Shown: positions 19,834 through 45,962 of the stretch, one piece after another | Position numbering within the stretch: position 1 is the stretch's first letter | Layout: every line of letters starts with the position of its first letter | Origin: Eretmocerus hayati | Lineage: Eukaryota; Arthropoda; Insecta; Hymenoptera; Aphelinidae | Direction of reading: 5' to 3' | Assembly (NCBI GenBank): GCA_029851415.1 | Contig: CM056744.1 | Coordinates: 114,825,838-114,889,837 of the forward strand | Length of the DNA: 64,000 nucleotides | Notes under the pieces: generated by a model | The model's database searches: none | Told to the model about the DNA's origin: nothing | What the model saw: the letters and a program-made list of their open reading frames with translations, nothing else | Program-made: the position numbers and the translations under genes

Positions 19834-19916
19834 CAATCAAACTCAATCAACGCCGGCATCTTTAGCTCTATCTTTTTCACTACTTGTAAAATCAACCTTT
19901 CCTACTCTGTGTTCAT

Positions 19917-22435
19917 ATGACAAAGCAAACAACCGTTTGCTACTGGAACTTAAGGGGCATCAAAGAGAAATGGCCTGAAATCCAAAAATTTCTATTAGAG
20001 CTGGATATTCTATGTGTCTCGGAAACCCTTTCTAATGAAAACGACATTATAGAAAATACCCCATTCCACAACTATATACATGCGCCGAGAACAAATCAAA
20101 TCAAAGAGAATGGCGGTGGTCTCATTGTATTTATAAACAAGAAAATTCAATATGAAAGAATATTTTTCAACAATTTCCCGAAAGGTGTAGAATACATTTG
20201 CCTATCAGTCCCACATGATAATGCCGAATACCACCTATTATTCATGTATAATCCACCCTACAATGTACTTAGCCAAAACCAATTTTCAAAAATTCTGAGC
20301 TTCAGTAAAGATAACGGAAAATTTTTGCTCATGGGCGACCTCAATGCTCAGAGCCCATTATGGGGCAGCGACTTCTCAAACAGCCTGGGAGACAGACTCT
20401 CGAGAGCAATTTTAGAATTAGATTCCGTAAACGTGTTGAATACCGGGGAAGCCACGCGTATTTTTACTAGAAACAGTTGCCCTGACCTAGCCATTGCATC
20501 CTCCGATATATCAGCTAAAATTAGATTTGAAGTCGGTCATGATCCCATGGGCAGCGACCACTTTCCCATAAAATGTATTCTCATGGATACCTGTTTCCAC
20601 ACGATAACGTCCAGAAACAAAGTCTCATTGTCTAGAATGAATTGGTCTGAATTCCAGAAACAGTCAAAAGAATTATTCGACTCATTCGATCCCCATAATT
20701 ACTCAAACTCTGATGCTTTGGCAACGGATTTCGAAAATATTATTTACGAAGCCATAGTCAAGGCAGGAGGCAAGGTTGAACATCAACCTGAGGTCCCCCA
20801 CAACAACCAATATTCCCAGCGAAAAACACCCCCTTCGTGTATATGGTGGGATGAAGAATGCACGGATGCGAGGGATGAACGCGCTGAAAAATTAGAGGAC
20901 TTCAAAGCACTTCCTTGCTTAAACACCGCAGTTGAATACAGAAAAGCCAGAAAAAAGGCTGAAAAAATTTTCAGGAAAGTAAAAAGAAAGAAATTCAGGC
21001 AATTTTTAGCCTCACTGAACCCTCATGCACCCTTATCTGATAATTTCAACTTCATTAAAAGATACAAAAAAAGATTTTATCAACCCAAGGCATCTTCTAT
21101 AGACTCAAATCTCATTCAAAACAATACAGCTTTATCTGCAGCTTTTGCCAAAATAAATAAAAGTAACAAGTACAATGACGATATTGACTGGAACTTCGAC
21201 TACACTGATGATCCAGTCCTCAACTCCCCAATTTCTTTACCAGAAGTCAGAGCAGCTATTTTAAGGGCGAAAAAAAGTTCAGCGCCTGGCCTGGACGGAA
21301 TCTCTAATGCTATCCTTAAAAGTTTACCCAAGTCGGGCATCCGGATCCTCACACACTTGATCAATTTAATTCTTGATACAGGGACATTCCCAAAAAACTG
21401 GAAAATCTTTAAAGTATGCTTCATTCCTAAGCCCATGAATAAAGGTTTTAGGCCCATAGCGTTAGCCCAAAATTTACTTAAAATTCTAGAGCGAGTAGTG
21501 AATGAGAGACTATTATGGTGGATTGAGTCGAAAAAGATCCTCCCAAGATTTTTTTACGGCTTTAGGCGCAATAAGAGTTGCAACGACTGCCTCGCGATCC
21601 TTCAAACGGACATCAATATCGCAAAAGCCAAAGATATGCAGATTGGTATCGTAGGTATAGATTTAGAAGGGGCATATGATAACGTAAATATGGAAGAACT
21701 ATTGAAGATCATGATTAAGCTGAAAATACCTCCCAAAATAATCAAACTAGTAAAGAATCTAATTGAGAACCGCGAACTTCACGCATACTGCGAAGGATGT
21801 AAAATAGGCATCGGGAGAACTAACAAGGGACTTCCACAGGGCTGTATTTTGAGCCCCTTGCTTTTTAATATTTACATTCATCTCATAACAAATTACCTCT
21901 CTATGAATGTGAGATGTCTAGCTTTTGCGGACGACATATTAATATACTTTAGAGACACTGACATACTAAAGATCCTGGAAACACTTTCAACAAACCTAGG
22001 ACTTCTTAAGAACTTCTTTGATCCTTTGGACCTAAAAATATCGGTTCCAAAAAGTAGCTTGATGATTTGCGGAGATAACACACTCCAAAACGGACAGGTT
22101 CATGTTAAGCTCGGTGATCTATTTATACCGAACACAAATAGTTTCAAGTACCTTGGAGTTATCTGGGACTCAAAAAACTCTTGGGACCTCCAAATATCGA
22201 AAATGATCCAAAGCGCGAATTTGGGCCTCAACATGCTCTCGTCGATAGGGAATTTCTCATGGGGGGTACACCCGTATACAATGCTATCGTTCTACAAATC
22301 TATTGTTAGACCGCGCCTAGACTGGGGTGGGTTTCTCATCGCAACGGCAAACGGCGCCCTTCTCAAGAAACTAGATATTGTCCAAAACGCTGCTCTAAGA
22401 AAATGCATTGGTTGCATGCGAACCACGCCAATTAA
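19917..22435 (+). CDS. LINE ORF2, N-terminal part: endonuclease and reverse transcriptase
   Basis: Residues 1 to about 220 form an APE-type endonuclease: CYWNLRGI, SETLSNEND, LLMGDLNAQSPLWGS and GSDHFPI correspond to its conserved blocks. The reverse transcriptase follows: PGLDGISNAI, RPIALAQNLLKILE, GIDLEGAYD (Asp582), GLPQGCILSPLLFN and the catalytic AFADD (Asp672, Asp673). This makes the target nick and copies element RNA at it. The true coding sequence is interrupted after TTPIN at 22435. The open frame that runs on to 22628 is read-through into the inserted transposon, not LINE protein. Coding resumes at 40598-40600 in the same phase, and the whole ORF2 would be 1252 residues. Confidence 0.9.
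22434..22435. repeat. Target duplication of the 18-kb transposon, left
   Basis: AA here and AA at 40598-40599 flank the terminal inverted repeats. Collapsing one copy gives an intact asparagine codon and an open ORF2. This makes the 2-bp duplication convincing despite its length. Confidence 0.7.
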
Positions 22436-22448
22436 CCCACACAGCATG

Positions 22449-24900
22449 GGAATATTTCAAAGAAAGATTCAGAGAAATATTTCATTGCAATCTCCCGGGA
22501 ATCTTGCAGGGATATTGCAGGAAATATTTCAAAATGTTCCGTGGCAATATTTCAGAGAAAGCTTCCCGGAAGCTCCCGGGAATATTTCAAAGAATCTTAC
22601 ACTCAATCTTTCAGTAACCTTGCACTGAAATATTTCTGAAAGATTCACGAAAGCTTTCTGAAAGATTTCATGAAATAATTCACTGAAATATTTCTGGAAG
22701 ATTTTCGAAAGCTTTCTGAAAGATGTAAGTGCAATATTTTGTGGAGAAGTTTTGGAAGGGTTACGAAAGCCTCTTGTAAGGTTTCACTGCTATAGGGAGA
22801 ATCTCCTGGGAATGATTCACCGATATTGAGTATAATATTTCATCAGGACGAGGCACCAAAATTTTCTGGAGGATTATTTGCTAGCTTCTACGGAGGGCTA
22901 AATTTTGAAACCAGTTTCAAATAACATCGTGCTTGCAGTTCTTTTAGGCTGGGACATCCTCAAAAATTCTATGATGGATTTTCAAAACTCACCGCGTTTT
23001 GATACTCTATATGGAGCACTTTGTGGCTGAGAGTTATCCTTCTAACTCACGATATCAAACGTGCCACTTTGGATTGAGCTTGGAAAATCAATTTGATTCT
23101 GGTTTTCATTGAATCAATAGATTTCGGGAACATTTCGAGGAATTCCTCTATGAGTAACCTCTCTGCTACTCAATTGCACCTAATGAAATTGGAAAAATTC
23201 TGAATACCTTTTAAAAGATTCCAAAAATATTTCTAGGGATTATTTCACCGGTAATCTTTCAGAAACATTGCACTGAAATATTGTTGAAAGCTTTACGAAA
23301 GCTTTCTGAAAGATTTCAATGCAATATTCTTAGGAAGAATTTCCGCGAAATTTTTGTACGATATTGAGATCAATGAAATATTTCATGCAATCTCCCAGGA
23401 ATCTTGCAGGGATATTGCAGGAGATATTTCAAAATGTTCCGTGGCAATATTTCAGAGAAAGCTTCCCGGAAGCTCCCGTAAATATTTCAAAGAATCTTAC
23501 ACGCAATCTTTCGGAAACCTTGCACTGAAATATTTCTGAAAGATTCACGAAAGCTTTGTGAAAGATTTCTTGGAACAATTCACTGAAATATTTCTGAAAG
23601 ATTTTCGAAAGATTCACGAAAGCTTTGTGAAAGATTTCTTGGAACAATTCACTGAAATATTTCTGAAAGATTTTCGAAAGCTTTCTGAAAGATATAAGTG
23701 CAATATTTTGGGGAGAAGTTTTGGAAGAGTTACGAAAGCCTCTTTTAAGGTTTCACTGCTATAGAGAGAATCTCCTGGAAATGTTTCACTGATATGGGAA
23801 TATTTCAGAATAATATTTAGAATCATTCAGGAATCTCCCAGAAATATTTCAGGGAATATTTCATGATATTTTATAGGAATATTCCACAGTAATCTTCCAG
23901 AGAGCTTCCGGAAATATTCCATCAAATATATCAAACAATCTTTCAGAAAGCTTACACTGAAAGATTCCTGAAAGGTTTCTGAAAGGTTCCTGAAAGATTT
24001 CAATGGAACATTCCAAGAGTATGACTTTGGAATATTTCTGCAATATTGCAGAATATTTTCCCAGTACTTTCGCTTTGGAAGATTTCTGCGTATTATCTGA
24101 AAGCTCTCTGGAAGATTTTGGAGAGATTTTAGAGAGCTCCGGTGAACTTGAAGGTTTCGGTGCGATATTCCAAAGATATCGCTTTCAAATATTCTTACAA
24201 CATTCCACTGACAATCTGTCAGCAATCTCGATTCAGAGAAATTTTCCGAAGGTTTCTGGGAGATTCCCAGAAAATTCTAATCCAACCTCGCGCAAAAAAT
24301 CACTCAAGTATTTTACGGATACTGCATTGACATTTTTCAGCAATCTTGCTGAGATTGATTCCTGGAATTTTTATCATCCCGGATAAGTTTTCTGGAAGAC
24401 TTTGTGGTATTCTAGCAATATGTCAGTGGAATTCTCCTGCAATATTCTACCCAGACGAACTCATATCAATCCTGCTCTGAAAGACTGTGGAAAAACCCCC
24501 AAAAGATTCTAGTAATGATTCTGAAAGGTTTCTGGAAGATTTCTGAAAGATACCAGTGGAATATTCCAGGAATATAACTTGGGAATATTCCTGGAATATT
24601 GCACGGCAATTTTCCAGCAATCTTGCTGAAAGAGATTATTAAGAGGTATCTGTAAGCTTCCTGGAATATTCCAGACAATCTTTCAGAAAGCTTACACTGA
24701 AAGATCCCTGAAAGGATTCTGAAAGGTTTCTGAAAGATTCCAGTGGTATATTCCAAAAATATAATTCCGAAATATTCCTGAAATATTGCACGGCAATTTT
24801 CCAGCAATCTTGTAGAAAAAGATTATTCAGAGGTATTTGTAAGTTTCCTGGGATATTCCAGTGGAATACTTCCACAATCCTGTCAGTGAAATATTCTAAT
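22449..24900. repeat. Left subterminal repeat array
   Basis: Dozens of short near-palindromes of the type GAAATATTTC, GAAAGATTTC, GAAAGCTTTC and GGAATATTCC are separated by CTGAAAG or CACTGAAA links. A block of about 350 bp at 22478 recurs at 23383. Within it, a unit of about 65 bp containing AAAGATTTCTTGGAACAATT is doubled at about 23540-23660. All open frames here are by-products of the repeats. Such arrays in CACTA elements bind a transposon-encoded protein. Confidence 0.85.
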
Positions 24901-27537
24901 ATACTTTTATTATTTTAATGATATTTTTCCGTCATAAGTCGGAAAAAATCGATTTTTCGAGAAAATATGTAGAGGAATAATTTGTAGATCTTTGAACGAT
25001 CTAAAAGAATGATCTCGACATTTTTCCTCGGAAAATGCATTCCTTTCGAGTTATTCTTCATCAAAGATATATTCAAATTTTTTCAAATAAACTCGCTCAA
25101 ACTGTTTATAGCGGGTTCAAACTATTTTTCTAAGTTAGCAAGGGTTTGGTCACTTAGTGATCGAATTCAGAGGTTTAGTCGCAGTACTATCTGCTTTGCA
25201 CCGATTTGTTTTCTCATGAATCGCATGAATGTATTGATTGTTCGCAGCGCTGACACTCCAGGTCACACATGCATTCTCATGACAGATTTAAGTGAAGAGG
25301 TGATCTGGACTATCGTGGTGATTGACAATGAGCTCATACTTACAAGAACTTTTATGGGAAAAAGAGTAGAGTCGGAACGCGAACAATATTCTCTTGACTG
25401 AACAAAGTGTTTCGGTATCAAAAAGATATTACTGCGGACAGTGCGGACGGGTTTCAGAGCACATGATTGATCACCGAAATAAGATGATAAAGGGAGGTGG
25501 ATCTGACCCTGAGCTCGAGTCTCGTCAGAAGCGGTTTTGATGCGATAAATTCCCTCTTCACAAATCATTTTCAATTATTCCCTTCGTAGTGACATTCCTG
25601 AGCCCTTTTCATCATCATGATCTATGATCGAATTATATATATATAAATATATATACTGCGAGTCGGCCATCTTAACTATCGTCCTTATCGCTCCAGTTTG
25701 CTGGTTAGCTCCAGTTCCCTCCAATTCGTGAGCACGTGTTCCTTCGTTCGTTGTGCTGAAGACTAGCTGCACGAGACCCTTTGTGCCCTTATGGTATCGC
25801 CCTTCTTGCCCTTTCCGCCCGGTACCATTATACCGTGTGAAGTGTATAGTTTACAGCAGCTTTTTCGGATGTAAGGCAGCGGAATACCTACCTGAATTCT
25901 TCAGCACAAAATTTGGAACCACAGGCACGACACCCTCGTGTGAGAAATTTGCAGAGAATCACAGGTTTGATATCTCATATTCATTATTTTGAATCACGGT
26001 GTTTTGTAGTTGAGAATATTGGAAATGACAAGGATCGATATGTGTTGATTTCATAGGTTGATTTACAATCCAGCTCAAAATTTATACATCGTTGATCATT
26101 AAACATTCCATAAATTATTGCATAGCTGTATGAATAGGTATTATGTAGTCTAATTTCATTCCCTGGGATAGCTATGGAGTACTTGAAATGGTAGATCTTT
26201 CGCACTCAACTTTTGTGAAATGTATCGTAATGCCAATATAGTCTCATCGCTCTACATCCTTCATTCAAATCAAATGTAGGTTATGAGGTGGAGAGTTTTT
26301 AACAATGGATCCAACCTTGACTTTGTGAGTAAGTCATTATGTCATAACATGCAGATTTATACTCTTTATCTTTGACAGAGACTCGACGAAAACAATATCC
26401 ACTGATCAAAATTTTCTTGAGCAAAACAAATTCTTTCCAGAATCTGAGTTGGCACATGATACTATATATTCTCAATCAGTCTTGATCTTGGGCTTGCATT
26501 TCCATCCTTAGATCCATAGAAGAAGTCAGATCCATCTCACAATCACAACATGAAACAAAAATCTCTTCGAACTTATATCGGAATACCTTTCTTGAGTGAA
26601 AATATGAACTGGCATCACAAAGGATTATGTTCCTTGTTGAAGTTTTATTCAAGAGTACTGCTACTTTTCTCTCTCAAGTATAAGGGCTTGCGCTGCTCTT
26701 GATCTGTTCTTAACAAACTCAGATTTGATTTCATGGTTATGAAGAGATTCAATGGCATTCAGACTATCCGAATATCTTAACCGATATTAATTTGAGAGTT
26801 GTGTTGACATGAGAAGGCTTCATCATTATTCTTTGTTATTAAAAAAACAGGCATCACCTCCTAACTTGTAATTTCAAATGGATCATTCCGTATCAATACT
26901 TTTGCAGTGCTTTTCATCACTCACATCACCTCCTTGAAAATTGTTAGTCTCATTTATTGAAATATTCCATATTCGCTCCCTTGGTCACTTATCGCATATG
27001 TCATAAGATATTCACACAATGAATTTCTGGTGTTGTTGAATTAGATACCCAGAATGGTGAAAACTTAAAGGTGTATCATCTCTTTGAAGAGGAGACAAGT
27101 TTTGTCCCACTCATCATTATTTTCAGTCCAATTTTTCCCAAACGAGTTCAGGTTTCATCTTCTTCAAGTATGTGCGATGTTGGTATTTTGATTCTTAGAG
27201 TTCCCAAACACCTCTCTCGTTAACTAGATATCATTAAAAATTATTATCAATCTAAATCAATTAGATGAAACTGAGAACAATAGGAAGATAACTCTAGCAT
27301 TGAATATTCCAAGTTTGAATTCCCTATTGAAGATCATTTGAAGAAAAAATTTTAGAAACGAGTTGGCTTTTGTGGGTAAAATGTCAAACGTAAAAGCAAA
27401 CCAAAACTTGAAAATGATCTGCAATATGTCATCTTCCCAATAGTTGACATCAATATTTTGATTTTTAGTTATTCATCTTTACTTGCAAAATTACTCATTT
27501 ATTGGAAGGAGTGTGATGAGAGAGGAAAAGCAATTAT
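24901..27537. other. Transposon interior without recognised gene
   Basis: Non-repetitive AT-rich DNA between the left array and the nested elements. A 130-codon frame at 25009-25401 has no recognisable domain. A TATA-rich stretch at 25633-25656 could serve as a promoter. Otherwise I see nothing. Confidence 0.4.
25633..25656 (+). promoter_or_regulatory. Possible TATA promoter of the transposase gene
   Basis: A TATATATAAATATATATA stretch is followed by unusually GC-richer sequence (CTGCGAGTCGGCC onward to about 25850), as expected at a transcription start with a 5' UTR. The transposase ATG is 5.7 kb away across nested elements, so a long 5'-UTR intron would be required. Simple AT-repeat is the alternative. 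Confidence 0.2.
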
Positions 27538-28985
27538 GGGAGAGTGGGGTGATTTGGACAGGGGCAAATTTGGAGAAGCTTAATAGGTCAGCCCAGGGTG
27601 AACCTAGGCTTTCGCCTCGTGAATACATTTTCAAAGGCATCACACACAATGGTCTCCATTGCGCTTAGACCTCCTAAAACGATACTGTGAGTCCACGCTG
27701 GCATAGGGGTGCTTCTAAATGAGGGTCTCACGCGGTTTCTTTTCCAAATGCAAGAATTCACGCCACTTTTGCAGAACTGTACAAGCTTAGTCGCCATAAA
27801 AGAGCCGAAAACTAAGGTAAGTGTACCCAACTTGCCCCCATTAAGCGATTTTCTTAATAACTTTGGCCCATCTCCATATTTTCCAACGTATTTCAGCTCA
27901 TTTTGAAGCTTGTTTTAAGACCTTCAAAATAAGTTAAGGTACATCCAATTTGAACCAACTGGAGCCAAACTGTTTCAATTCTCCCAAAAGGTGATTTTTG
28001 AAAGTTTACTAAAATGTGTACCCAACTTGCCCCCATTAAGCCTTTTTCTTAATAATTTTGGTTTGCTTCAACGATTTTCAAAGTGCTTCAGCTCATTTTG
28101 AAGCTTGTTTAAAGACCTTTGAAATGCACTAAACTACGTCCAATTTGGATCAATTGGAGCCGAACTGTCGCAATTCTTCCGAAATAAATGATGGAAATCG
28201 TCGATAAGAAGTCTTCATCACCGTGCACGCACATTTGGAGCTTTTCGGTGGTTCGAAACACTATTTCTGACCCATTTTGACGTGATAAACGCGTTCTGAA
28301 GGGTAAAAAAAGTCGTTCTGCGCGCCCTTTCGAGATAAACATATGGGGGCATGTTAGGTACACTCCGATGTTGGCATCCTTGTTTACAAATCGTCTCCGT
28401 GTTTTGCACATAAAACAACTCCATATTCAAATTTTGCAATTCTGAAAAATGGATTCTGAAGGTCTTGAAACAAGGAATCGAATGCGCTAAGGTACGTCAA
28501 GATTGGTTGAACTAAAAAAAATTCGCATATGTTTTACTGAATGCAATTCCTCGGTGCTTTCTTAGCTAAGCAATCACGAAAAATAGAAAAATCATTTTAG
28601 ATTTTCTGGAGAATGCAGGAATGATTCGGGGTCGACGCAAACTACTTACTTTCTCATATTTCAACATAACAAACGTGAAAAAAATTTGCCGAGAGGCCAA
28701 GGAGTGTCCATCCCCGAGATCGCCATATGGGGGCAAGTTGGGTACAGAGGCAAGTTGGGTACACTTACCTTATTTCGCAAAACCAAGATTTTGAGCCTTT
28801 GTGGGCGTGAATAGGCCAAGATGGAAGCCAGTGATTGCAATTTTGTGGAAATGAAAAATCGGGGGCATTTTGAGTCGGATTGGACGGAGCGAATTAGGAC
28901 AATGGTAGTAAATCCCATGTCAGATCGGTCGTAGATCGGGTACGTGCTCGTGATTTCGAGAGGATGATGGTACGTATCGAAGCGT
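27538..28985. mobile_element. GGGGAGAGTGGGGC-end element, copy B (right part missing)
   Basis: The left end GGGAGAGTGGGGTGATTTGG and the following 270 bp match copy C at 29798 segment by segment (GGTCTCCATTGCG, ACGATACTGTGAGTCCACGC, TAGGGGTGCTT). After the nested element at 27815-28770, the match resumes with AAGATTTTGAGC and GATCGG blocks and fades near 28985. No right terminal repeat is found, so this copy is truncated or rearranged. Confidence 0.65.
27815..28770. mobile_element. TA-flanked MITE/mariner-like element nested in copy B
   Basis: The terminal inverted repeats AGGTAAGTGTACCCAACTT (27815) and AAGTTGGGTACACTTACCT (ending 28770) are exact and flanked by TA at 27813-27814 and 28771-28772. 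Internal copies of GTACCCAACTTGCCCCCATT recur at 28017. Copy C of the host element lacks this segment at the matching place (AAAACTAGGTCACG), which proves the insertion. It is 956 bp with no transposase. Confidence 0.8.
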
Positions 28986-29797
28986 ATATATATACATACA
29001 TGTGTATATGCATACGCGAGGGCATACGCGCCTCGATATGTGTACATGGGTATTATCGCGAAAACTTACACATTTTTGACCCAAAAATTTAGAAATTAAA
29101 AATTCATACGCCTTGTATGCCCATCTCGGCTTCTTCTACTCCTTTTCGGATGCTGAGAGATAATGTGTTATAAAACGGATACAACCATTTTTTAGGGACT
29201 AGTTAGACCGGTACATGTGATTTTCACATGTATAAGACATAGAGAAAGTAGTACACGAAACTGACATTTGCCGGTTTTTGACGCCCCATTGTCTAGCGCG
29301 AAATCTTGATGCGATGGGACCAAATGACCTTAAAATTCGTGTTGAGTTGGTTAACTTAAGTCGAAAATACATGCTCTGAAGCAGATGACCCCATTTCTCC
29401 CTCTTTTTCGTTCTCTTGAGTATCCCAAGAACGACTTTGGAATGCACGAAACTGACATGCATGGAACTGATATTTTACCCTTAAAACCGCTCGCAAGAAT
29501 AGTGAAGTTGAGGTAGAATCTTCTACGCGCGGATTTCGTCTATTTCCGTCATATTCTAATGAAAGGAGTGTTTGCACTTAGATAAAATTGACTTCTATTG
29601 GGGTAACATGTTATGCACGAAACTGAAAGAGTTTTTCACGTGGCTCATTTTCGGCTATAAATTTTAATCCAGTGCTCGAAAATTCGATTCTGGGCCTTTT
29701 CTCCTATCAAGGTCTCACCTCTTCCTTTCGTCGAGTTTGCACAAGCTCAAGCGTTTTGAGTTGTCAGCTAAAACGCAGGCATTACATTATACCTATA
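28986..29797. other. Spacer with repeated CACGAAACTGACAT motif
   Basis: GCACGAAACTGA(C/A)A-like motifs recur near 29256, 29444 and 29613. Similar text (GAAACTGACATTTGG and 'cttaaa') occurs near 57886, so this is probably fragments of another dispersed repeat. No gene is seen. Confidence 0.35.
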
Positions 29798-31014
29798 GGG
29801 GAGAGTGGGGCAAAATTGGATAAGTGAGATAGCTCGGTCGGAGGCGAGTCTAGGCTTTCGCCGCGTAAACTCTCTTTCAATACCATTACAGACAATGGTT
29901 TTTATCGCGGTTAGACCTCCCAAAACGACACTGGGAGTCCACGCTGACATAGGGGTGCTTTTCGAGGGCCTGACGCGGTTTATTTTCCAAATGCAAAAAT
30001 TCACGCTACTTGTGCAAAATTAGACGAGCTTAATCGCCGTTTTGGGGTCGAAAACTAGGTCACGAAACGAAGATTTTGAGCTATCGTGGGCCAACATCGG
30101 TTCACTTGGGCCCAAATGATCACAATTCTGCGAAAAAAACGCCTGGGGGCATTTTTGGACAAATTGGTGGGGGCGAATTTGGACAATGCTAAATCCCATC
30201 TAAAATCGGTCGACCGATCGCCTGTCCGTGTTTTTCGAGAATAATCGTGCGTATCGAGGCGCGTATGCGTTTGGGCGAGTTTTTGGAAGCGCGGGAGGTT
30301 GAGGGTGAGTAAGATGATTAAAAATGGGTGAGAAAGTGAAGTTACGATGTCCAATGGCCGTCTTAGGAGTCAGTTCAGAGGTCAGAAGTCGCTTTCAACG
30401 TGTTCCAAGATAGTGCTCGATTTAAGCATTTTCACTCTCGCATTCGATGACATTGCCTTGAATGTTACACACTATCAGCGGGATCGTTGACGTAGGCGCG
30501 AGTATGAATACCTCCAATGTGAAGAAAAAAGGAAAAGAGTCGACTCTTAGAAGCCACGAGTCGATTGCTGATTTGCTGAAGACAGCAGTGCAACAATGAA
30601 GCGCCTATTTCAATAATGTTGAAGAATGACACAAAAATGGCTCGCTTGCCTGGGCTATGGGAGGATGTGAAAGTCTCGGGCGGCTTTCCATCTTTTCTAT
30701 GGGTTACTACCACGTGTCTTGATGAGAAAATGCGACTCTAATATGTAGGGAATAATGCCGTATACCTCAATTTTGAAAGGCTGTCCAAATTTGCCCCCAA
30801 AACTTGTCAGAAGTGCCCCCAAGCTAGACGCTAATTTGGACAGATTTTTGTTTTTCAACTTTAAGAAAAACTATGAACGCTGAGACCTAGGAGTCTGAAC
30901 ATTTTTCTACAATGTATTCAATAGTTGAACTTCAAAGTCCCATAGCGCGCCTAGCCCCAAGTATCGCCAAATAGCCTCACTGCAAAATCCGTCCAATTTT
31001 GCCCCACTCTCCCC
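29798..31014. mobile_element. GGGGAGAGTGGGGC-end element, intact copy C
   Basis: Terminal inverted repeats of 23 bp are perfect: GGGGAGAGTGGGGCAAAATT at 29798 and AATTTTGCCCCACTCTCCCC ending at 31014. It is 1217 bp without a transposase, so non-autonomous. It matches copy B at 27538 and copy A at 1015. The target duplication is not obvious. Confidence 0.75.
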
Positions 31015-31352
31015 TGTGTGTCATTCTCTCACATGAGTCTGTGTATGGGCATTGCTAGTGTCTTAACTCGCGGCTTGGAAACTCTTGAATATTGGCGAGT
31101 GTGGCTTTGAACATCTTCTTTTCGAACCAAAACGATATTTATTTCCAGAGTTTTTGTCAATTACACGACCTGGACTTCAAACTTCCCAACTTGTCTGTTA
31201 CCTCAAGATTCTATTCGGTATCAGATGTTATGTTAAAATGATGAGTCATTGAATGTTTTCTATTAGGATTCCCACCAACCACTCAATCGAAAGGGTCGTT
31301 TAAATTTGAGGTGCAGATTTGGAAGCCGTACCATTTTTGACCTACATTTGCA

Positions 31353-33635
31353 ATGCCCAGATTGCCGAAGGGCTCACAGCCGCAAAGCTCTAGACATATC
31401 AATCGGCTCAGCCGATCCCAAACTCATGATGACATTCAGAATATAATGTCAGAATTGTCAAAATTGCAAGCAGAATCAAGTCCATTGAACGCTGATGATG
31501 ATGATAAAACTACACACGATGATGACATCATCATCCCTTATCAGGAAAGTGTTCAGAATCATTCTCAAGATGAACAGAATTATCCTGAAGCGATAGCAAC
31601 GTCCATCCAAATACATTCACATGACACACACTCACTAGACGGTTCACAGGCCCCAACACTTCGAGTCGATGTAGGTGACGAATTTTCACCCGCAAATTCC
31701 ATGCAGTCGCAAGACAATGAAATATATCAATCGGGAGAAGATAGCAGTGATAGCGACAATGCTAGCAACACAGATGAATCAGACTCTGAAGTTGACCCAA
31801 GAATATTTTTGCTTCCAAAGGATATGTTGCAACAAGCCCAAAGTAGAGAAGATCTTGAATTCACAAATGATATCCACGAATGGGCCATTCTTCATTTCAT
31901 CAAACACAGTGCGTTGAGAGCTCTCTTAGCTATCTTGAACAAACGCACCAATACTAAATTTGTCAAGGATCCCAGAACATTGTTAAAAACCCCTAAATCC
32001 TCAAAAATTATTGATCTTGGAGGAAGTAAGTACTGTTACACAGGACTATTGAATGCCTTGAAAAAGATAGTCAGGATAAAAACTTTACGAGGTCAAATAT
32101 TCAACACAATCAAGCTCTCTATCAATATAGACGGTGCTCCACTTTGTGGAGATTCTTCAGAACAAGGGTGTTGGACAATTTTGTGTAAAGACGTGCACTG
32201 TGACGCTGTTTTCGTGGTTGGTATATCTCATGGTCCTGGTAAACCTGATCGAGATGGGTTTTTGAAACCATTCATAGAAGAATGCAATGAGTTGACAAGA
32301 AATGGGTTCGAATGTGACAACCTGAAGCTGAAACTTGAAATAGATAAGATTTGTTGTGACGGTCCTGCTAAGTCATTTATTCTGAATACTAAACACCCTA
32401 CTGGTTACTTTAGTTGTAGTAAGTGTCTTATTGAGGGAGGGCATTCCGATTGTGTCTGTTTTCCTGTCCCAGATCTGGAAACTCTGGAACGATATTGTCA
32501 TGTGCTTTTGCGTACTGATGTTGATTTCAAAAATATTGCTTACCTCGGTACTTATCAGCATGGTCCGACCATAATGCTGGATTTAGAGGATCTAGAGCCG
32601 ATCACTGACGTTGTGATGGACCCTTTACATCATGTTTATTTTGGAAATATGAAACCTTTGCTAAAAGTATGGATTGAAGGCTCAAAAACCAAGAAAGGTA
32701 AACTTCCAGCCCATCAAATCGCCCTCATTAATCAGCGATTGCACAATTTGAAGAATGCTCTGCCTTTTGAGTTTAATAGACGATGTAGTACTTTGAAAAA
32801 TTGGAAAAAATGGAAGGCTACTCAGTACAGGCGTTTTCTTTTGTATGACGGTCCTCCGATATTGAAGGATATCTTGGCACCCGAAGCGTTCAAAAACTTC
32901 CTGATGTTGCATCTTGGTATTTACATTCTGTCAAGTAAAAAACTCGTCCAGGACGAAGAAAATGTTTTGTATGCTGAATCTTTATTGATAAAATATGTTT
33001 ACGGTTTCCAAAAACTATACGGGAAAGGCGATGTAACTCACGGTATTCATTGTACAATCCATATTGCTAAGGACGTTCTTAGACATGGGCCCTTGGAAAC
33101 TTTCAGCGCCTTTCCTTTCGAGAGCTACTTATATTTCTTGAAAAGACTAATTAGAAAAGGAGAAAAACCATTGGAGCAAATAGATCGAAGACTAGCTGAA
33201 TATGATAGACTGATAGAATTGAAGAATGAGATCATAATCAATGAAAATGAGTTCGAGGTTACTAAATCACATCATAAGGGCCCACTCATTGATTCCATCC
33301 TTTCCCATGAGCAATATAAAGTCTTAAAAAGTAGCTGTTGGCGACTAGATGTTGATGATGACCGCAATAATTGCGTCATGCTTGACGATGGGTGCATAAC
33401 TAATGTTGTCAACATTGTTCGCAGTGAAGGTATCTTGCACGTTGTAGGCAGAAAATGCAATAAACAAGCTGGTCTATTCACCTTAGATGATTTTCAGAGT
33501 AGCTTGTTTGGTATTAACATTGTTTTGGATTCTCATGAGATCGGTGCATGGCCGTGTAGCAAAATAATTGCTAAGATCTTTAAAATCCCATATGGTGGAG
33601 GATTTGTATCATATCCTTTGATTCATACTCTATAA
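31353..33635 (+). CDS. TNP2-like transposase (CACTA/CMC type)
   Basis: 760 residues in one exon. The first 170 residues are acidic and low-complexity. The catalytic region then shows INIDGAPLCGD (Asp260), HGPGKPDRDGFLKPFIEECN and ICCDGPAKSFI (Asp336), which fit the first two acids of a DDE/D transposase. A Cys cluster, GYFSCSKCLIEGGHSDCVC, is typical of the family. Next come MDPLHHVYFGNMKPLLKVW and, near the C-terminus, HGPLETFSAFPFESYLYFLK, which resembles the DUF4218-like tail of TNP2 proteins. It would cut and join the ends of the 18-kb element. The frame is intact and ends in the usual FPL/YPLIH-like tail. It is the only recognisable transposase in the window, and the gene is probably recently active. 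Confidence 0.82.
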   Translation: MPRLPKGSQPQSSRHINRLSRSQTHDDIQNIMSELSKLQAESSPLNADDDDKTTHDDDIIIPYQESVQNHSQDEQNYPEAIATSIQIHSHDTHSLDGSQAPTLRVDVGDEFSPANSMQSQDNEIYQSGEDSSDSDNASNTDESDSEVDPRIFLLPKDMLQQAQSREDLEFTNDIHEWAILHFIKHSALRALLAILNKRTNTKFVKDPRTLLKTPKSSKIIDLGGSKYCYTGLLNALKKIVRIKTLRGQIFNTIKLSINIDGAPLCGDSSEQGCWTILCKDVHCDAVFVVGISHGPGKPDRDGFLKPFIEECNELTRNGFECDNLKLKLEIDKICCDGPAKSFILNTKHPTGYFSCSKCLIEGGHSDCVCFPVPDLETLERYCHVLLRTDVDFKNIAYLGTYQHGPTIMLDLEDLEPITDVVMDPLHHVYFGNMKPLLKVWIEGSKTKKGKLPAHQIALINQRLHNLKNALPFEFNRRCSTLKNWKKWKATQYRRFLLYDGPPILKDILAPEAFKNFLMLHLGIYILSSKKLVQDEENVLYAESLLIKYVYGFQKLYGKGDVTHGIHCTIHIAKDVLRHGPLETFSAFPFESYLYFLKRLIRKGEKPLEQIDRRLAEYDRLIELKNEIIINENEFEVTKSHHKGPLIDSILSHEQYKVLKSSCWRLDVDDDRNNCVMLDDGCITNVVNIVRSEGILHVVGRKCNKQAGLFTLDDFQSSLFGINIVLDSHEIGAWPCSKIIAKIFKIPYGGGFVSYPLIHTL

Positions 33636-34509
33636 TCTCCATATCAATGAAAATTGAATGTGGATCTAACTTTCGTACATTTCTAATTGTAATCATTGTC
33701 AAATACTTTCAGAATTTTTTATCAGGAAATATAGATCATGTCATTGATAGAATTGATAGTATCGATTTAGTATCGCAATCATATGAAGGGTTCGGTGCAC
33801 GTAGAGATCATCTAGTATTAAGAGGTGTCCGCTATTAGAGTGCCCGTTGTTGGGAGATTGTACTGTGCCTCGTCAGCTTTGCAGCTCGAATGCAAAGACT
33901 CTTTTCTATCGCTAGTAGCCCACCGTTATTACCACGCGTCTTTTTTCTTGTGTCATTATCAAGAAATCTTTGATCCAGAGTTCCTGCGGTCTGTCAACTA
34001 TACTTCCGTGCGCGAAGAATTATACGGCTTCATTCCTATGTCATCTCAAAAATGATGAATGCTCCAGGCTTAAAGAACTTCAGTCACATGAACTCACTTG
34101 AGAGCTCCGATTTCTTGGCTTTGGACTGTTACTTTTACGCCATGCCTTGTGCCGCACGGTGAAACGAATGATATCAGCGGTATTAGGCTTCAAACCATAT
34201 ATGCTTATTTGCTTATTTCTCCTCTTGTATCAAGCTGTATCAAGGTAGATCATCTATAATCAGGATGAGACATTCCTGTACTATTCCTGTCGAGTTATCA
34301 ATCGTTGCAAATCGTTAAGGAATCTGTTTTCTCAACCTAGGGAATACAATAGGCTTCGTTCCCTCTCATCTCGCGTAGATTATCAATAATGATGTATGTT
34401 CTGATTCAATCGTACCAGAAACCAAGAAGTATCACTCTCAATTTGTATATTTCAAGCTGAATTTGACAGTAACTGGACGCTTGGACAAAAGGGAGTATAA
34501 TACATCACA
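33636..34509. other. Spacer between the two transposon genes
   Basis: It should hold the transposase 3' UTR and the promoter of the DUF4806-type gene. A TATAAT-like motif at 34496-34501 is only about 10 bases before the ATG, too close for a TATA box. No coding block is recognised. Confidence 0.35.
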
Positions 34510-37500
34510 ATGCCCAAGCCTTTCGCCATCATCAAAGATGAGAATGGAGTCAAACGAGTTGTAGCAACAACATGGTTATCGGACGATCTAGATACCTTCA
34601 AATGGCCGCCATTTGACGATGTAGCAAAAGTCGTGAAAGCTGTCACTGATTTGGTTGAACCAGATGATGATTGGGACGACTTCGAAGTGACGAAGTTCAT
34701 AAGATATAAAGGTGGGATTTTAAGTAATGCTTAGTTATCGTTCTGAGTGCTCTCTAGCTGTTTTCAGCGCCATCTTGCGGTAAGATTGGTTTTATTGTGA
34801 ATTTTAAATAAACCAAACAACGTATAACAGCTTGCGATGTACCGCCACCTGCGGGGAATTTTCCTGCAGTTTTGGAAACAAAAATTCATCGAGATTGATG
34901 CAAAATTCAGCCAACAAAGTTGCGAGAATATCTGTATAGTTTTGTTTAATTTTTTCCGCAAATTTGTGAGCTTAATTTTGCACCGATCTCGATGAAACTT
35001 TTTTTTAAATTCGCAGAAAAATATTCTACAGGTGGCGGTATAATTGGTCTCCTGCATCTTTCTTTTTGAGAATTATCATTGACAATATACCAATTTGGTC
35101 GCTAGAGGCGCCACCGTCGCATTTCAAAAGGTAGAGAGCACTCTTGAGGGGGTTCGAAAGGAACTCGCGAGTCAAGGTAAAAACCGATAGTGGCAATGGA
35201 ACCAAAAATCCATATTCACGTTCCTGACTGCTTGAATTTCTATCTGTGAATTCAAAATATGAATTGAGATGAGGCCAGAAATCATTTCCACAATGTTCGG
35301 ATCTGTGGAGTTATGAATTTTAATTTTTGGTGCATTGATTGACTACCGTAACATCGCCGTAACGAGCACGAGAATTGCAAATATAACCTCCCCGTCATCA
35401 GCTTGTATTGAAAAAATCTCTTCAAAATGTCCGTCAACCCTGGATTTTCATTCATTTATCATAAATTATGGAATCACAGCTTTCTAGGTAATTCCTCATT
35501 ATTGTGGCTGATAAATACGAAAAAATATCCCGTCACTTAATTCGCTAGAATCTTCGATATGCCCGTCAGACGTGGGTCGAACATCCAATTTTCAAATGAG
35601 TCAATCTCGAAAATTCCATAGTCAACACATATTTTTTCCACCGGCAATCGATCCGGAGGCTTTCAATCTATAGATTCCATCAGACCCAACTTGCTGTCCG
35701 GAAAAGTCAGGAACTATCGAACCCCCTCAGTTTTTCGTATTCAGTTGAAAATTTGGTATTTAAGGAGTTACATCAGACTTTTTAGGCTCGAAGAATCATG
35801 CCTCTCTTTTTCAGTTCAAAACATTTTTTTTCGTCTTCTAAGAGTATGAATTGTGAAATTAACTATTGTTATCGGGATTTCGATGAATCGCGTGTTTTTC
35901 GTTATACAGATACTTATAGTGGGGCCGTTGCTGATATAAATTTGAAACTAGACGAAGTCACTGACGCAAGTGACGACGAGAAACTAAAACATAGTAGAGC
36001 TTCACGAAGAGCGAAGAAATTATCTATGAGTCCTCCATCGCCTAAAAAATCATCTGGAAAGAGGGTTCGCACTTCAAGCGACATCGAAGAAACCCCATCT
36101 CCAAAAAAGTCAAAACGCAATGGGAGTATTTCAGAAGAAAGTTCTAGCGACGAGAGTACTCCCAATACAGCTACCGCAACTACTGCGGCGGAACCAACCA
36201 GGACCTCTTTAAAAGTTCCGAGTAAACTCGCTCTCTTCAGTTATGAAAGTAATGGTAAAGGAAATGCCAAAACAAGTGGTTCTCGCAACGATGGTAGGTT
36301 ACCATTGTACGGCTCTTGAATTGCTAGCTCATCTCTCTCTTCTCATCCATCAGGGTTGTCGCAGATTAGTGTACTTTCGTTCATTCGTCGCAAACCCTTA
36401 CCCAGTTCCCCATAATTCTCATTCACATCATGATGTTGAGTCTTACATTGGTCTTTCAGGTCGAGTATCCTCCCATGTAGTTTCTAGTGAAGAATCACCA
36501 CGTATCACGGAAGATTTTGTGTGGAATCCGAAGTCAACGGAGGAGGGTCAATTCATACTCTTCAGTAAGACTCTTCCATAACTCTATTGAATAGTTGGCA
36601 GTGGTATTTGCAGAATAGTTATCTCTCTTCGTAGGTATGATGAAACAGGTACTTTTGAAAACCAATAAGTTGACTCGCAACGTCGATTTGTTATTGAAGA
36701 GAAATCAAGCAAAGGATAATGAAGTGAAATGCTTAGCAATTCCTTCGACATCCTCGATGATACCCATCGACAATGATGTTTGTCAACATTTCCCTATTGA
36801 TGATAAAAAAGTTTCAAAACCTCACAAAAAAGATAAGAAAGATGGAGAGAAAGAATCCAGAAATGAAGAAGAAGATGGACCCAAGAGTATTAGTGTTGTG
36901 GAGGAAAAACTGACGAAAAAGAAGGGATTTTTTAAAAAAGTAGTGAGTATTCCTTCAAAAACCTCGATATCCATGTGTTTACCCTCCACATTTACATTCA
37001 TCGATAGATGGTCGAAAACTGTTGCAAAATCCTCCAAGAAATATCGTCGAAATCACAAAAATCACTTTTGAGCAATCGAAATGCAACCGTGACGTTCTTG
37101 TTTAGAAATTTCGACGCCGGAATTTATTCTCTTTCTCTCAGTGGTTCCAGGATCCCACCACGACTATTTTGATGATTTTGTTCGAATCCTACTGCAATGT
37201 GCATGTGGTGGATCGAATAACAGTCACTGCCCTTCTATGAATACGTTAAATCCCTCTCATGATCATTAGTGACTATTTATGTTTTTCCACCTTTTTTGGT
37301 GGCATAGTTGTTGACCAATGATATTACTCGATGTGATGAACTACTCTCATATTGAACTTGCAGGTGAATTGGATGCTCAATTTAGGTGGAGAAACCGCAC
37401 ATGAACTTGTTTACAATATAATGATGGCATCTTTTACTAATGAAGTTGCTAATAAATACAGCTATGTGGGTTTGAAATCGAAAGCCCCATTCATGGATCT

Positions 37501-38734
37501 AAAATTGAATTCTTGCATATTCTGTAAGTGTACAAATGATATACGTAACTTTGAATTTGAATGTATGATTATGAAAGTCCTATAAATTGGTTCGATGACG
37601 ATTGTTGAAATTTCATGGGCTATTGGCATATTGCAACAATTTATTAATCCTCAATTTGTAACTTTTATCATTCTGCTGTATTTATCTTCTATGTTACTCG
37701 TAATCGGTTATAGCATTTGGGTACAATCGAATAATCGTAGGAAGATAGAGTGAAATATGAGTTCTTCTGGATCGAAAATTGATTTTTGTGGATGCGGTTT
37801 ATTCTTTCTTACTGGATAACTTCTGGAGTAACGTGTTCGGTCTTTGCCAACCTGATCCACCCTCAAAAAACATTACTTTCTTACCACTATCGTAACATCT
37901 CACCCTCACTCTAGCTAGCTATTTCGGATTGTTGGAATGATAATCATCAGGAATAATGTTTACAGGAAACTTGTTTTGATACAGCACATTTGTAACATCT
38001 TATTGCCTAATACCTTTGGTATCCATATCTTGTCCGGATATTGGAAGACTTTTCAATTTGACGTCTAGATCCCGTCGTTTTTTGTATTTCCCACTAAAAT
38101 ACTATGATCTTCGTCTTTCCAGATGCTGCGTTACAGCATAAAACTAAACCCTCTCAATTCGACATCAAGAAGAGTATCACAATGTGGCTCGACCAGTCTG
38201 GTACCAGACTAAAACGCGAAGGCGATGAAAAGTGAGTTCTGATCTTTCCCTTCATTTTGAAATCCGGAAAATATCGTATAGAAGGATCTTTTCGAGAACA
38301 GATGAATATTGATGACAAAAGTGAGAGAAACAGATAGGTTACAGTAGCTTGTGTATGCTATGATTACGACGAATTTTTCAACGTAAGCGTCGACAATTCC
38401 TTGGTAGATGCGTGCTTCAACTTTAGAGATTGGGGAGCTTCAATTCGTCATTGTTAATCCTGTGTTGCATGGATTTCCCTGTTCATTCCATATTTTGATT
38501 TTCGTTGACTCTGCCTGGAATTTTATTCACCGAGAGGCATATCGTCGCAGCATAACAAGATTCAATAGTTCATAGTGATGGAAAATTTCCCGATAAACCG
38601 CAGTTCGTGGTTCACTCACTCTGATATCAATAACCTGTTCCAGGAAGGGATCATCGAAGAAAATCTTCATCCCTATCACTCCAGTTGAGGACAGTGATGA
38701 TGATGACGATACCGACGTAGAGAGCGAAAAATGA
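34510..38734 (+). CDS. Seven-exon DUF4806-type protein gene inside the transposon
   Basis: Manual splicing gives exons 34510-34711, 35910-36293, 36460-36564, 36635-36942, 37364-37523, 38123-38231 and 38644-38734. Every junction has GT/AG and compatible phase, and the total of 1359 nt encodes 452 residues. The N-terminus (VVATTWLSDDL, FKWPPF) matches the short W/WPP motif that starts insect DUF4806 proteins. Exons 2-4 are Ser/Lys-rich and nuclear-looking. The C-terminal DUF4806 domain includes VNWMLNLGGETAHELV, NKYSYVGLKSKAPFMDL and, in exon 6, ITMWLDQSGTRLKRE. The tail is acidic (VEDSDDDDDTDVESE). The biochemical role is unknown. From its position I infer a DNA-binding or regulatory partner of the transposase. 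Intron 1 contains a MITE. Confidence 0.78.
34745..35143. mobile_element. MITE in intron 1 of the DUF4806-type gene
   Basis: The terminal inverted repeats GAGTGCTCTCTA and TAGAGAGCACTC are exact. The interior carries a long palindrome (GAAACTTTTTTTTAAATT-type text mirrored) and GCGCCATCTTGCGG near the left end. It is related to the longer element at 10022-11364. It is non-coding and lies wholly in the intron, so it need not harm the gene. Confidence 0.7.
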
Positions 38735-39737
38735 GGTGCTCTAGTTACGATGTGAAATATGCTACTGTATATATATTTGTTATCGCGCGATATTCTATTA
38801 ACACGATATGTACCTTTGAAGTAATATAGCAGTAGTATACTCGATTCTCTCATGAATAGTTTCATCACCCTCGCCTCTCCACAAGTAGGAGTATTAAAGG
38901 TAAGCGTGTCTTGAATATCTTGAGAACCCATAATCGGGTATCGAGAGTATTTCACTCTATCAGGGATGAGCAAGAGCTGTGATATAATTCGAGTAAAAAC
39001 TGAACGCTGGCTCACTATCGAACCAACAGGGACAGTACATATGGCTCAAGACAGTCGTACCTTAAATTACTTGCATATTCATGATAGATTTTTCATGGAC
39101 ATCTACATCAATGAGGTCCTACAGGTTGTCAGAGATTTCTTCAATCTGCCCTTGATATCGTTTCAAGCTCTGTGATAGTATTTAGCACATTATCTGTGTA
39201 GTTCTGATATGCTAAAGAACTTTTCATCTTCTTTGAAGTAGCTACACTATCTTTCATGGTTGAATTTTCCTCGCTTGTAGCGCACAGCAATTATGTGCAA
39301 GATCGATTCAATCTCTTTCGAGTATTGACGGAAGCGTCTTGCGCACGCTTCCATGAAATCAACCGAATGTATTCCGATGATAAAGAACGCAAATTCCACT
39401 TATATATAGTATTGAATCGGTTCCATTGAACAGTGTCCTATTCGCAATTATGTATGCATTTCACCTCGCTGCGAGACTTCGAGCCTGAACCATCTTTTAT
39501 GACCACTTATTGATGTGTGGGGTGAGGCCACTCCTTGAATCTATTGGGAATTCCATCAATCAATAGAACTTCCTCATTTGCTGTCTGAGTCAGTCCTTCA
39601 TTTAACTATAAGAGTACATCTTCAATCCATTGGGTATATTTGGGATGTGAAATGTCATAGAGATTTTTCACTCATCTCATGAATCCTCGGGGGGGGGGGG
39701 GGACTCAACATTCGAGAGCTTCAGTCAACTGGGAATC
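38735..39737. other. Transposon 3' region, no gene
   Basis: Follows the DUF4806-type stop codon. Long minus-strand open frames here are antisense shadows. A run of 13 G occurs at about 39690-39702. Confidence 0.4.
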
Positions 39738-40584
39738 TTTCACTGAAATAATCTAATAATATCCCCCGAAATCTTGCACGAATATTTCAGTTGAATAACC
39801 CATTGCAATTTCTGCGATTTTTTCTCGAAACTTCCTCAAAGTATCACTGGGAACATTTCAGTAATCTTTCAGGAACATTTCAGTGAAATATTCCAATGGA
39901 ACCTTCCTGAAATCTTCCATTCAAGACTCCATTGATAGAGGTTTTTAAGGAATCTTCCGGGAATCTTTCACTGAAATCTTGCAGAAACCTTTCAGAAACC
40001 TTTCAGAAATCTTGCAGAAACGTTTCAGTGAAATATTTCAATGAAATCTTCCTGAAATCTTGGAGGTATTCAAGGAATCTTCCGGAAATCTTTCACTGAA
40101 ATCTTTCAGAAACCTTTCAGTAATCTTTCAGGAACATTCCAGTGAAATATTCCAATGAAATCATCCTGAAATCTTCCATTCAAGACTCCATTGATAGAGG
40201 TTTTCAAGGAATCTTCCGGGAATCTTTCACTGAAATCTTGCAGAAACCTTTCAGAAACCTTTCAGAAATCTTGCAGGAACGTTTCAGTGAAATATTTCAA
40301 TGAAATCTTCCTGAAATCTTGGAGGTTTTCAAGGAATCTTCCGGCAATCTTTCACTCAAATCTTTCAGAAACCTTTCAGAAATCTTGCAGAAACATTTCA
40401 GTGAAATATTTCAATGAAATCTTTCTGAAATCTTCCCGAGGGATTCCCGGCAATCTTTCATGAAACCTTTCAGAAAGCTCTCTGAAGTGGGACATATCTT
40501 TATTGAGGGAAGCTTTCAATGAAAGGTCCCTGAAAGATTCCCGGGGTTTGATGAAAGCTTCCAGAAAGCTTTCTGAAATATCCT
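39738..40584. repeat. Right subterminal repeat array
   Basis: Same motif family as the left array but in opposite orientation: AATCTTTCACTGAAATCTT and AACCTTTCAGAAATCTTGC, against CTGAAAGATTTC at the left. A unit of about 254 bp containing CTTCCATTCAAGACTCCATT at 39918 recurs at 40172. It ends 1 bp before the right terminal inverted repeat. Confidence 0.85.
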
Positions 40585-40597
40585 CATGCTGTGTGGG

Positions 40598-41839
40598 AAT
40601 GTACTACACCACATCGCGGGGGTACCAACACTTGAATGGAGAAGGACTCAACTAGCTATGAAATTCTTATCCAAAGCTCACTCATTATACGATGACGCAC
40701 TCATACCAAGGTTGAGGTATTTAGAAAACTTCATAGATACGAGACACGACAAGACTCTACTTAGCCCCAACTTTGGATTCCTTTACTCCACATTGATGAA
40801 TTTCAACATCGGCGACAAACAAATAAGAATCCGCTCGTTACCCTCGTATATTATACCCTTTTTTGCACATTTTCTTAGCGAACACGTCGATAACTCGTTG
40901 GTCCGGAAATACCAAATTCACAAAAACCAACTTGGAAACATGGTCCAAAACTTTATACGAAGCGAATATTCCAACTCATACGTAGTATTTACCGACGGTT
41001 CCAAAGACGGCGAAAACTGTGGCGCAGGAATCTACACACTCCACGACGAAGGCCGAATGAAAATTAGAATGAATGCGCAAAATTCAATCTTTAGCTGTGA
41101 GGCCTTTGCCATTTTGAGGGCCCTACAAGCATTGCATAAATTAGAACCCAAGAGGGTTGCAATCTTCTCCGATTCTCTGAGCGTTCTGAGTAATTTAGCG
41201 AAAGACGGTTTAAGCTCCTCGATGCACCTATTCATAGCAAACATACGTGCTTGTATTCATGACATGGAGAAAAAAGGCTTCTCTGTAAAACTTTTTTGGA
41301 TACCCAGTCACGAAAAGATCGAAGGAAACGAAAGGGCAGATGAAGTGGCCAAGGAAGCCTCCAAATTAAATCATATTCACTTGAATACCTTCTGGCATCT
41401 AGATTTCAATTCCACTATTCGCAAAACCATAAATCAAAACATGCTAGAATTTTGCAAAGATTATGGATACGGAACAAAATATATTGAGTTACAAACAGCC
41501 TTTTGCTCTAGGCCATGGTTCGCAAATTCAAAAAAGAACAGAAAAGACATTTGTTTGCTAAATCGCTTAAAAAGCAATCACAACTTATCTAAATTTCACC
41601 TCTGCAGAAAAAATATTTTAAGAGATGACATGTGTGATTGTCTCGAATCACCGCAAACTTTAGAACACCTCTTCTGGAGGTGCCCTAAGCTAGCTGAGCG
41701 GAGACAAACCTTCTTAAACTCAATAAGAGATCTTCAAATCTCAGTTGATACAGATATCTGCCTTTTAATGAATTCAGCCAGCATAGAAACCTGCTGGAAG
41801 TTCGTCAAATTTGCCATCGACGCTGACATGAAAGTATAA
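40598..41839 (+). CDS. LINE ORF2, C-terminal part: RNase H and zinc region
   Basis: This continues the ORF2 frame right after the transposon. The first 12 bases of the apparent open frame (from 40586) are transposon end, not LINE. RNase H signature: VVFTDGSKDG with the first Asp, a downstream CEAFAILRAL Glu, IFSDSLSVL Asp, and IPSHEKIEGNERADEVA with the last His/Asp. Downstream, CDCLESPQTLEHLFWRCP is the Cys/His motif common at the C-terminus of I, Jockey and R1 ORF2 proteins. RNase H removes element RNA during second-strand synthesis. The frame is open to its TAA. Confidence 0.88.
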   Translation, partial: NVLHHIAGVPTLEWRRTQLAMKFLSKAHSLYDDALIPRLRYLENFIDTRHDKTLLSPNFGFLYSTLMNFNIGDKQIRIRSLPSYIIPFFAHFLSEHVDNSLVRKYQIHKNQLGNMVQNFIRSEYSNSYVVFTDGSKDGENCGAGIYTLHDEGRMKIRMNAQNSIFSCEAFAILRALQALHKLEPKRVAIFSDSLSVLSNLAKDGLSSSMHLFIANIRACIHDMEKKGFSVKLFWIPSHEKIEGNERADEVAKEASKLNHIHLNTFWHLDFNSTIRKTINQNMLEFCKDYGYGTKYIELQTAFCSRPWFANSKKNRKDICLLNRLKSNHNLSKFHLCRKNILRDDMCDCLESPQTLEHLFWRCPKLAERRQTFLNSIRDLQISVDTDICLLMNSASIETCWKFVKFAIDADMKV

Positions 41840-45168: not shown

Positions 45169-45962
45169 TCGAACTATTGTTGAAAAATGGTGCTAACGTG
45201 GATGCGAGAAATCACATGTTAGAAACCCCCTTATACTTGGCAAAAGATGATGAAGTAATATGTCTCCTCCTAAATCATGGTGCTAATGTCAATATCCAAA
45301 ATATCCACGGGAGTACACTCCTACATAAGATCTGCAGAGACTATAAAACTTTCAGAAACAATAATACACTAGTTGCTCTATTGAAGAATGGTGCTGACAT
45401 TAATATTGAAGATTACCAAGGACTCACCTGTTTGATGATGATCAACAGTTTTGATCAAAGTAATGAAAAATTTGCTGTTCTTCTCTTAGAGCACATCAAA
45501 AAATCATCATTGATAGGTTTTGATATCAGCCAAAAAAATAAAGATGTCTACCTCGAAATATTGAACAGGTGCAGAAACGTTTTCGATGTAAGCTATTTCG
45601 AGAATGCATGTAAGAAAGAAATCAAATTGATGATGTCGAAAAAGATTGATCGCTGTACATCAGTGTATGATATTCTATTTAAGAGTTTAAACAGCATGAC
45701 TCAGTATTGTAGAAATGATATTTTGTTGAGTTTACTTCAATCTATCAGCAATGATTTTCCTGTTTACGGTGATTTTGTACTGTTACAAATCAAGAGAGGT
45801 AAAATTAGACTATCTTTGCTACAAAACTCTATGAAATGTTTCGCCCTCTTGATGAAGACACCATTACCGCGAGCATGTTCGGAAATGATACTTCATCATC
45901 TTAGTGACACGGAACTCGTCAATATTATTAAAAGTGTAGAGAGATCTAATACCGATCAATAA
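45165..45962 (+). CDS. Ankyrin/PRANC-like protein, C-terminal part
   Basis: 265 residues from the first ATG in frame, continuing the ankyrin array (MIELLLKNGANVDARN, VICLLLNHGANVNIQN, LVALLKNGADINIED). After a helical linker, the C-terminus has FPVYGDFVLLQIKRGK followed by LPRACSEMILHHLSDTEL and NIIKSVE. This resembles the PRANC/F-box-like domain at the end of poxvirus, Wolbachia and parasitoid-wasp ankyrin proteins, where it recruits SCF ubiquitin ligase. The ATG overlaps the upstream stop (AATGA), which could allow re-initiation, but a frame break within one gene is simpler. PRANC assignment is from motif memory and should be tested by profile. Confidence 0.6.
   Translation: MIELLLKNGANVDARNHMLETPLYLAKDDEVICLLLNHGANVNIQNIHGSTLLHKICRDYKTFRNNNTLVALLKNGADINIEDYQGLTCLMMINSFDQSNEKFAVLLLEHIKKSSLIGFDISQKNKDVYLEILNRCRNVFDVSYFENACKKEIKLMMSKKIDRCTSVYDILFKSLNSMTQYCRNDILLSLLQSISNDFPVYGDFVLLQIKRGKIRLSLLQNSMKCFALLMKTPLPRACSEMILHHLSDTELVNIIKSVERSNTDQ

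Follow-up and report, generated by a model that had tools for sequence, protein, structure and literature searches.

CACTA-type transposons of animals, the 'TRC' elements, have been described from Schistosoma (SmTRC1), Tribolium, Aedes and Hydra (Spongebob_HMa), and in plants large CACTA elements such as En/Spm, Tam1 and the 20.5-kb soybean element Tgmt* combine 13-bp termini and dense subterminal repeats with genes for a transposase and a second DNA-binding protein (PMC1636069, PMC4298943, PMC2613891). In a 64,000-nucleotide stretch of the genome of the aphelinid parasitoid wasp Eretmocerus hayati (contig CM056744.1, positions 114,825,838 to 114,889,837 of the forward strand; in the following, the window) an element of 18,162 bp was analyzed, which carries a transposase gene and, behind it, a spliced gene for a DUF4806-like protein. 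With a probability of roughly 60% we regard the latter as the second gene of a CACTA-type cut-and-paste transposon, the product of which likely binds the subterminal repeat arrays and would join the ends of the element for cutting. Among animal CACTA transposons, the element most likely represents a new variant with two genes.

The wasp element agrees with the animal TRC elements in its CCC termini, its 2-bp target duplication, the broad CACTA type of its transposase and its insertion into another repeat (PMC1636069, PMC4298943). SmTRC1 differs in being about 4.5 kb long with one open reading frame (ORF), and a second gene goes unmentioned in the part of its description consulted (PMC1636069), whereas the wasp element reaches 18.2 kb and has both long subterminal arrays and the spliced DUF4806-like gene. 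In size, length of the termini and density of subterminal repeats it resembles the plant elements; however, the plant termini begin with CACTA and Tgmt* duplicates 3 bp, compared with CCC and 2 bp here (PMC2613891). Plant tnpA and tnpD arise by alternative splicing from one element. For Spm/En, TNPA is described as binding the subterminal repeats and being absolutely required, both proteins being needed for transposition, and TNPA and TNP1 show little similarity (PMC2613891); therefore, unrelated proteins may fill the end-binding role. PIF/Harbinger elements likewise have two genes, the second encoding a DNA-binding protein, while binding is predicted in the wasp element. In Harbinger3_DR, a 9-bp subterminal motif is bound by the Myb-like second protein, on which the joint nuclear entry of both proteins depends. 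PIF/Harbinger elements differ in their unrelated transposase, in a Myb/SANT/MADF protein instead of a DUF4806-like one, and in typically 3-bp target duplications (PMC9710019).

The element and its insertion site were delimited as follows.

22436..40597, + strand: element as a whole, 18,162 bp (inverted termini of 13 bp without mismatch, 2-bp target duplication, interrupted retrotransposon ORF)
22434..22435, no strand: target-site duplication AA, left copy (long joined ORF only with a duplication length of 2)
40598..40599, no strand: target-site duplication AA, right copy (same evidence)
22436..22448, + strand: left terminal inverted repeat CCCACACAGCATG (13/13 matched with the right end)
40585..40597, - strand: right terminal inverted repeat CATGCTGTGTGGG (13/13 matched with the left end)
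19890..22435, + strand: target, endonuclease and reverse transcriptase part of the ORF of a retrotransposon without long terminal repeats (RVT_1, E 1.6e-36; Exo_endo_phos_2, E 1.7e-15)
40600..41839, + strand: target continued, RNase H part of the same retrotransposon ORF (RNase_H, E 1.3e-13)

In the window, the 13-mer CCCACACAGCATG and its reverse complement are each present as a single copy flanked by AA, and the termini begin with CCC as in animal TRC elements. None of 1000 base shuffles reached a match of 13 bp between the two 201-bp ends. When the element and one AA were removed, a single ORF of 1,261 codons ran through the junction; duplication lengths of 0, 1, 3 or 4 gave no long joined ORF, whereas 2 bp (AA/AA) did. 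The strong argument for an insertion is that parts of one retrotransposon ORF lie on either side of 18 kb. Thus, everything in between is inserted DNA, holding both genes.

Further insertions resembling miniature inverted-repeat transposable elements were seen inside the transposon at 27807-28778 and 29791-31021, with 35-bp imperfect inverted ends (29/35 and 28/35) of the GTGTACCCAACTTGCCCCC and GGGGAGAGTGGGG types. The stretch 27561-27714 is 77% alike to the beginning of the insertion at 29791-31021.

The first gene encodes the transposase.

31353..33635, + strand: transposase, 760 amino acids, single exon, full length (CMC motifs, protein search, predicted fold)

CMC transposases are defined by a DDE triad with C(2)C and H(3-4)H between the second D and the E (PMC12730594), and this arrangement is present here as D260, D336, C355-x2-C358, H566-x3-H570 and E590. 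When the predicted fold was searched with Foldseek, all 23 matches at E <= 0.001 were RAG1 or Transib, which share this fold at a sequence identity of about 10-13%. Transib carries one gene. The protein search, which scored the 7,994 candidates with most words in common, returned 47 matches, with identities of 42-43% to Nasonia and one other relative. No Eretmocerus hayati protein was among these 47; masking of repeats ahead of gene prediction may be the reason. The Pfam family Transposase_21 (tnp2) was not reported for the transposase of the element at E <= 1, and 6 of the 48 members of the alignment (the 47 matches and the element's own protein) match it at E <= 0.1.

One of the matches, P0046 from Trachymyrmex cornetzi (ALC57_03199), is named 'DUF4806 domain-containing' in UniRef and was considered as a fusion of the two proteins. 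At E <= 0.1 its Pfam scan was empty, and BLAST against the Phymastichus coffea relative of the second protein found no meaningful similarity (best E 1.6), so the fusion reading was dropped. P0046 is a transposase fragment; its last ~90 residues look by eye unlike transposase, and the gene model possibly extends into a neighbouring gene.

The second gene lies on the same strand, with exons as follows.

34510..34711, + strand: exon 1, start codon and WPP motif (splice joining, deposited protein, alignment with relative)
35910..36293, + strand: exon 2, basic runs resembling nuclear signals (splice joining, deposited protein, residue composition)
36460..36564, + strand: exon 3 (splice joining, deposited protein)
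36635..36942, + strand: exon 4 (splice joining, deposited protein)
37364..37523, + strand: exon 5, core of the DUF4806-like domain (splice joining, Pfam, deposited protein)
38123..38231, + strand: exon 6, conserved WLDQSGTRLKRE (splice joining, deposited protein, alignment with relative)
38644..38734, + strand: exon 7, acidic tail and stop codon (splice joining, deposited protein, charge count)

Joined via GT/AG borders, the seven exons give 1,359 bases, i.e. 452 codons and a stop. Four of the splice-site combinations tried stay open, encoding 451, 452, 455 and 456 amino acids. Each of the six introns contains an in-frame stop if retained, and none has a length that is a multiple of three. The 452-residue product is identical in all residues (452/452) to QAD02_016192, a hypothetical protein of Eretmocerus hayati, from a gene set in which ab initio, homology and RNA-seq predictions are described as combined, transcript evidence being weighted highest (PMC10482854). 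The original prediction of a seven-exon gene with GT/AG borders and 452 residues was thus borne out by the joining and by the deposited protein, and its placement behind the transposase ORF (31353-33635) and ahead of the right array (39725-40597) agrees with the coordinates. In intron 1, inverted-repeat pairs at 34838-35042 (14/17) and 35145-35729 (17/21) resemble small insertions; the exons remain open. The cluster of QAD02_016192 lists three member sequences on two contigs, and UniRef gives n=3, an unverified hint of more than one copy which we do not use as evidence.

The encoded protein matches DUF4806 (PF16064) at residues 316-386 with 24.0 bits (E 5e-5), compared with a curated Pfam cut-off of 25 bits. 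As the score falls just below the cut-off, the wording 'DUF4806-like' is used throughout. The profile search thereby supports the predicted C-terminal DUF4806-like domain. In the Pfam scan at E <= 1 no other family, and thus no Myb/SANT/MADF domain, was reported. The WPP motif, at residues 32-34, lies within a conserved N-terminal block and is kept in Phymastichus coffea, and a net charge of -7 over residues 420-452 corresponds to the predicted acidic tail. The middle part of the protein is basic and serine-rich, with runs such as KRVR and KKSK.

The relative in Phymastichus coffea, a eulophid chalcid wasp (P0049, 414 amino acids), shows 50% identity over residues 328-430 (E 2.3e-18). Global alignment gave 37% identity with conserved blocks at both ends and an unchanged WLDQSGTRLKRE, and this protein itself scores 22.2 bits against DUF4806. 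With the whole 452-residue protein as query, the only match among 5,116 candidates was QAD02_016192 itself; with the domain alone, 2 of 20 candidates matched, QAD02_016192 and the Phymastichus coffea protein, and no further relative was found. Scans for stray insect DNA in viral contigs, also with the terminus pattern, and in prokaryote genomes yielded no locus. PDB sequence searches with the transposase gave no meaningful match.

Both ends of the element are occupied by repeat arrays.

22436..24910, no strand: left subterminal repeat array (GAAAG[AC]TT mostly on +, 24 vs 9; inner border by eye)
39725..40597, no strand: right subterminal repeat array (GAAAG[AC]TT mostly on -, 13 vs 3; inner border by eye)

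The arrays, 3,348 bp in total, contain 49 copies of the motif GAAAG[AC]TT; elsewhere in the window there are 11, none of them in the 14.8-kb core that separates the arrays. The favoured strand of the motif reverses between the ends (24/9 left, 3/13 right). Dense subterminal repeats in opposite orientation at the two ends are the layout known from TNPA-type systems, and as in these one transposon carries the genes for both the transposase and the second protein.

Altogether, a TNPA-like role appears by analogy to be the most likely one for the second protein. It would enter the nucleus through the basic runs in its middle part, and its C-terminal domain, possibly of a BEN-type fold, would bind the GAAAG[AC]TT-type repeats. 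According to one passage citing Pan et al. 2023, DUF4806 is said to be related to the BEN DNA-binding domain. Self-association of the protein could then pair the two ends of the element, and the 13-bp termini would be handed to the RAG1-like transposase, which would cut and subsequently insert with a 2-bp duplication. Through occupancy of the arrays the protein may, in addition, control expression of the element, a function that TNPA has for its own element in maize.

A number of observations weigh against this reading. A single copy of the element was seen. The largest terminal match in the 1000 shuffles was 12, one base below the observed 13, and 208 of 625 nearby joins of the retrotransposon halves likewise stay open, so that the joined ORF alone is weak proof of the exact junction. 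GAAAG[AC]TT was selected from the arrays themselves as one of 13 motifs counted, and the p value for its strand reversal (Fisher, 0.0006) is therefore descriptive. The DUF4806 score lies under the curated cut-off, as noted above. DUF4806 was detected in 0 of the 48 transposase-family proteins at E <= 0.1, which gives no evidence for a fusion. Modelling of the second protein with AlphaFold, from an alignment of 2 sequences, gave an unusable fold (mean predicted local distance difference test score, pLDDT, 33.4), and a PDB sequence search with this protein found no meaningful match. Two BEN motifs looked for in the arrays, CCAATTGG, which is that of Insensitive, and AAATCTCG, that of BANP (PMC10206803), do not occur there.

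That the gene belongs to the transposon, as had been predicted, is well supported at this one locus by the single insertion with exact termini and duplication, and by its lying on the same strand as the intact transposase. It could nevertheless be a passenger, a host DUF4806 gene captured by the element and without a role in transposition. Gene capture occurs in Pack-type CACTA elements. In favour of this, the element has been seen in one copy only, no transposon context is known for P0049, the nearest relative, and genes bearing DUF4806 are reported from other animals as ordinary annotated ones. However, the gene is complete and undamaged despite the repeat-like insertions in intron 1, and it lies directly behind the transposase on the same strand. 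We regard capture as rather unlikely. The identities to relatives are close for the two proteins (37% to Phymastichus coffea vs 42-43% for the transposase), but they come from different species pairs and say little.

A different job within the transposon was also considered, in which the protein counters host silencing or acts on chromatin without pairing the ends. BEN-domain factors act in transcription and insulation, abstracts describe BEN proteins as factors of chromatin and boundaries, and TET/JBP genes in fungal CMC-type elements are thought to fight silencing (PMC12730594). We judge this reading improbable. An end-binding protein would require just such dense mirror-image arrays as are seen at the two ends; moreover, TNPA does both, so this reading overlaps with end binding. 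It is highly improbable that the gene arrived in a separate mobile element inserted later into the transposon: further repeat-like insertions are present inside it (27807-28778, 29791-31021), but inverted repeats around the gene gave no convincing pair (best 13/15, between 33636-34509 and 38735-39720), those around a unit of both genes (24911-31352 vs 38735-39720) gave at best an AT-rich 14/16 in a scan covering inverted ends only, and two small ORFs behind the gene have no Pfam match.

If the DUF4806-like protein is indeed an end-binding protein, a family without known function would gain a testable job, and animal CACTA elements would use a separate protein for this purpose, like plant CACTA and Harbinger elements. 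A broader version of this idea, which we put forward only tentatively and with some doubt, is that DUF4806-type proteins correspond in animals to plant TNPA, being BEN-like end-binders encoded by CACTA transposons, and that scattered DUF4806 genes in insects, Hydra and fish are loose or domesticated copies. The domain had been called a widespread insect domain; it does occur in insects, but is not confined to them, since papers report it from zebrafish and Hydra. In a table for Hydra viridissima, two Hydra species have 69 and 54 copies of DUF4806 vs 0-6 in the other columns, alongside swollen numbers of the transposase domains DDE_3, hAT and Tc3 (PMC7642931). End binding by DUF4806-type proteins would account for such joint swelling of domain counts in genomes like Hydra. 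In open-licence literature, covered by titles, starts of abstracts and passages on DUF4806, with Repbase reports and subscription papers outside this scope, no link of DUF4806 or BEN to a CACTA element was found. For annotation, it would follow that genes labelled DUF4806 may be transposon genes. With its ends exact and both the transposase and the second gene intact, the wasp element is a direct candidate for an excision assay with two components, and might serve as a new tool for insect gene transfer.

Just outside the element, at 42937-45962, the window contains long ORFs of the ankyrin-repeat type, of 743 and 271 amino acids; the longer one matches Ank_2 with E 7.6e-66.
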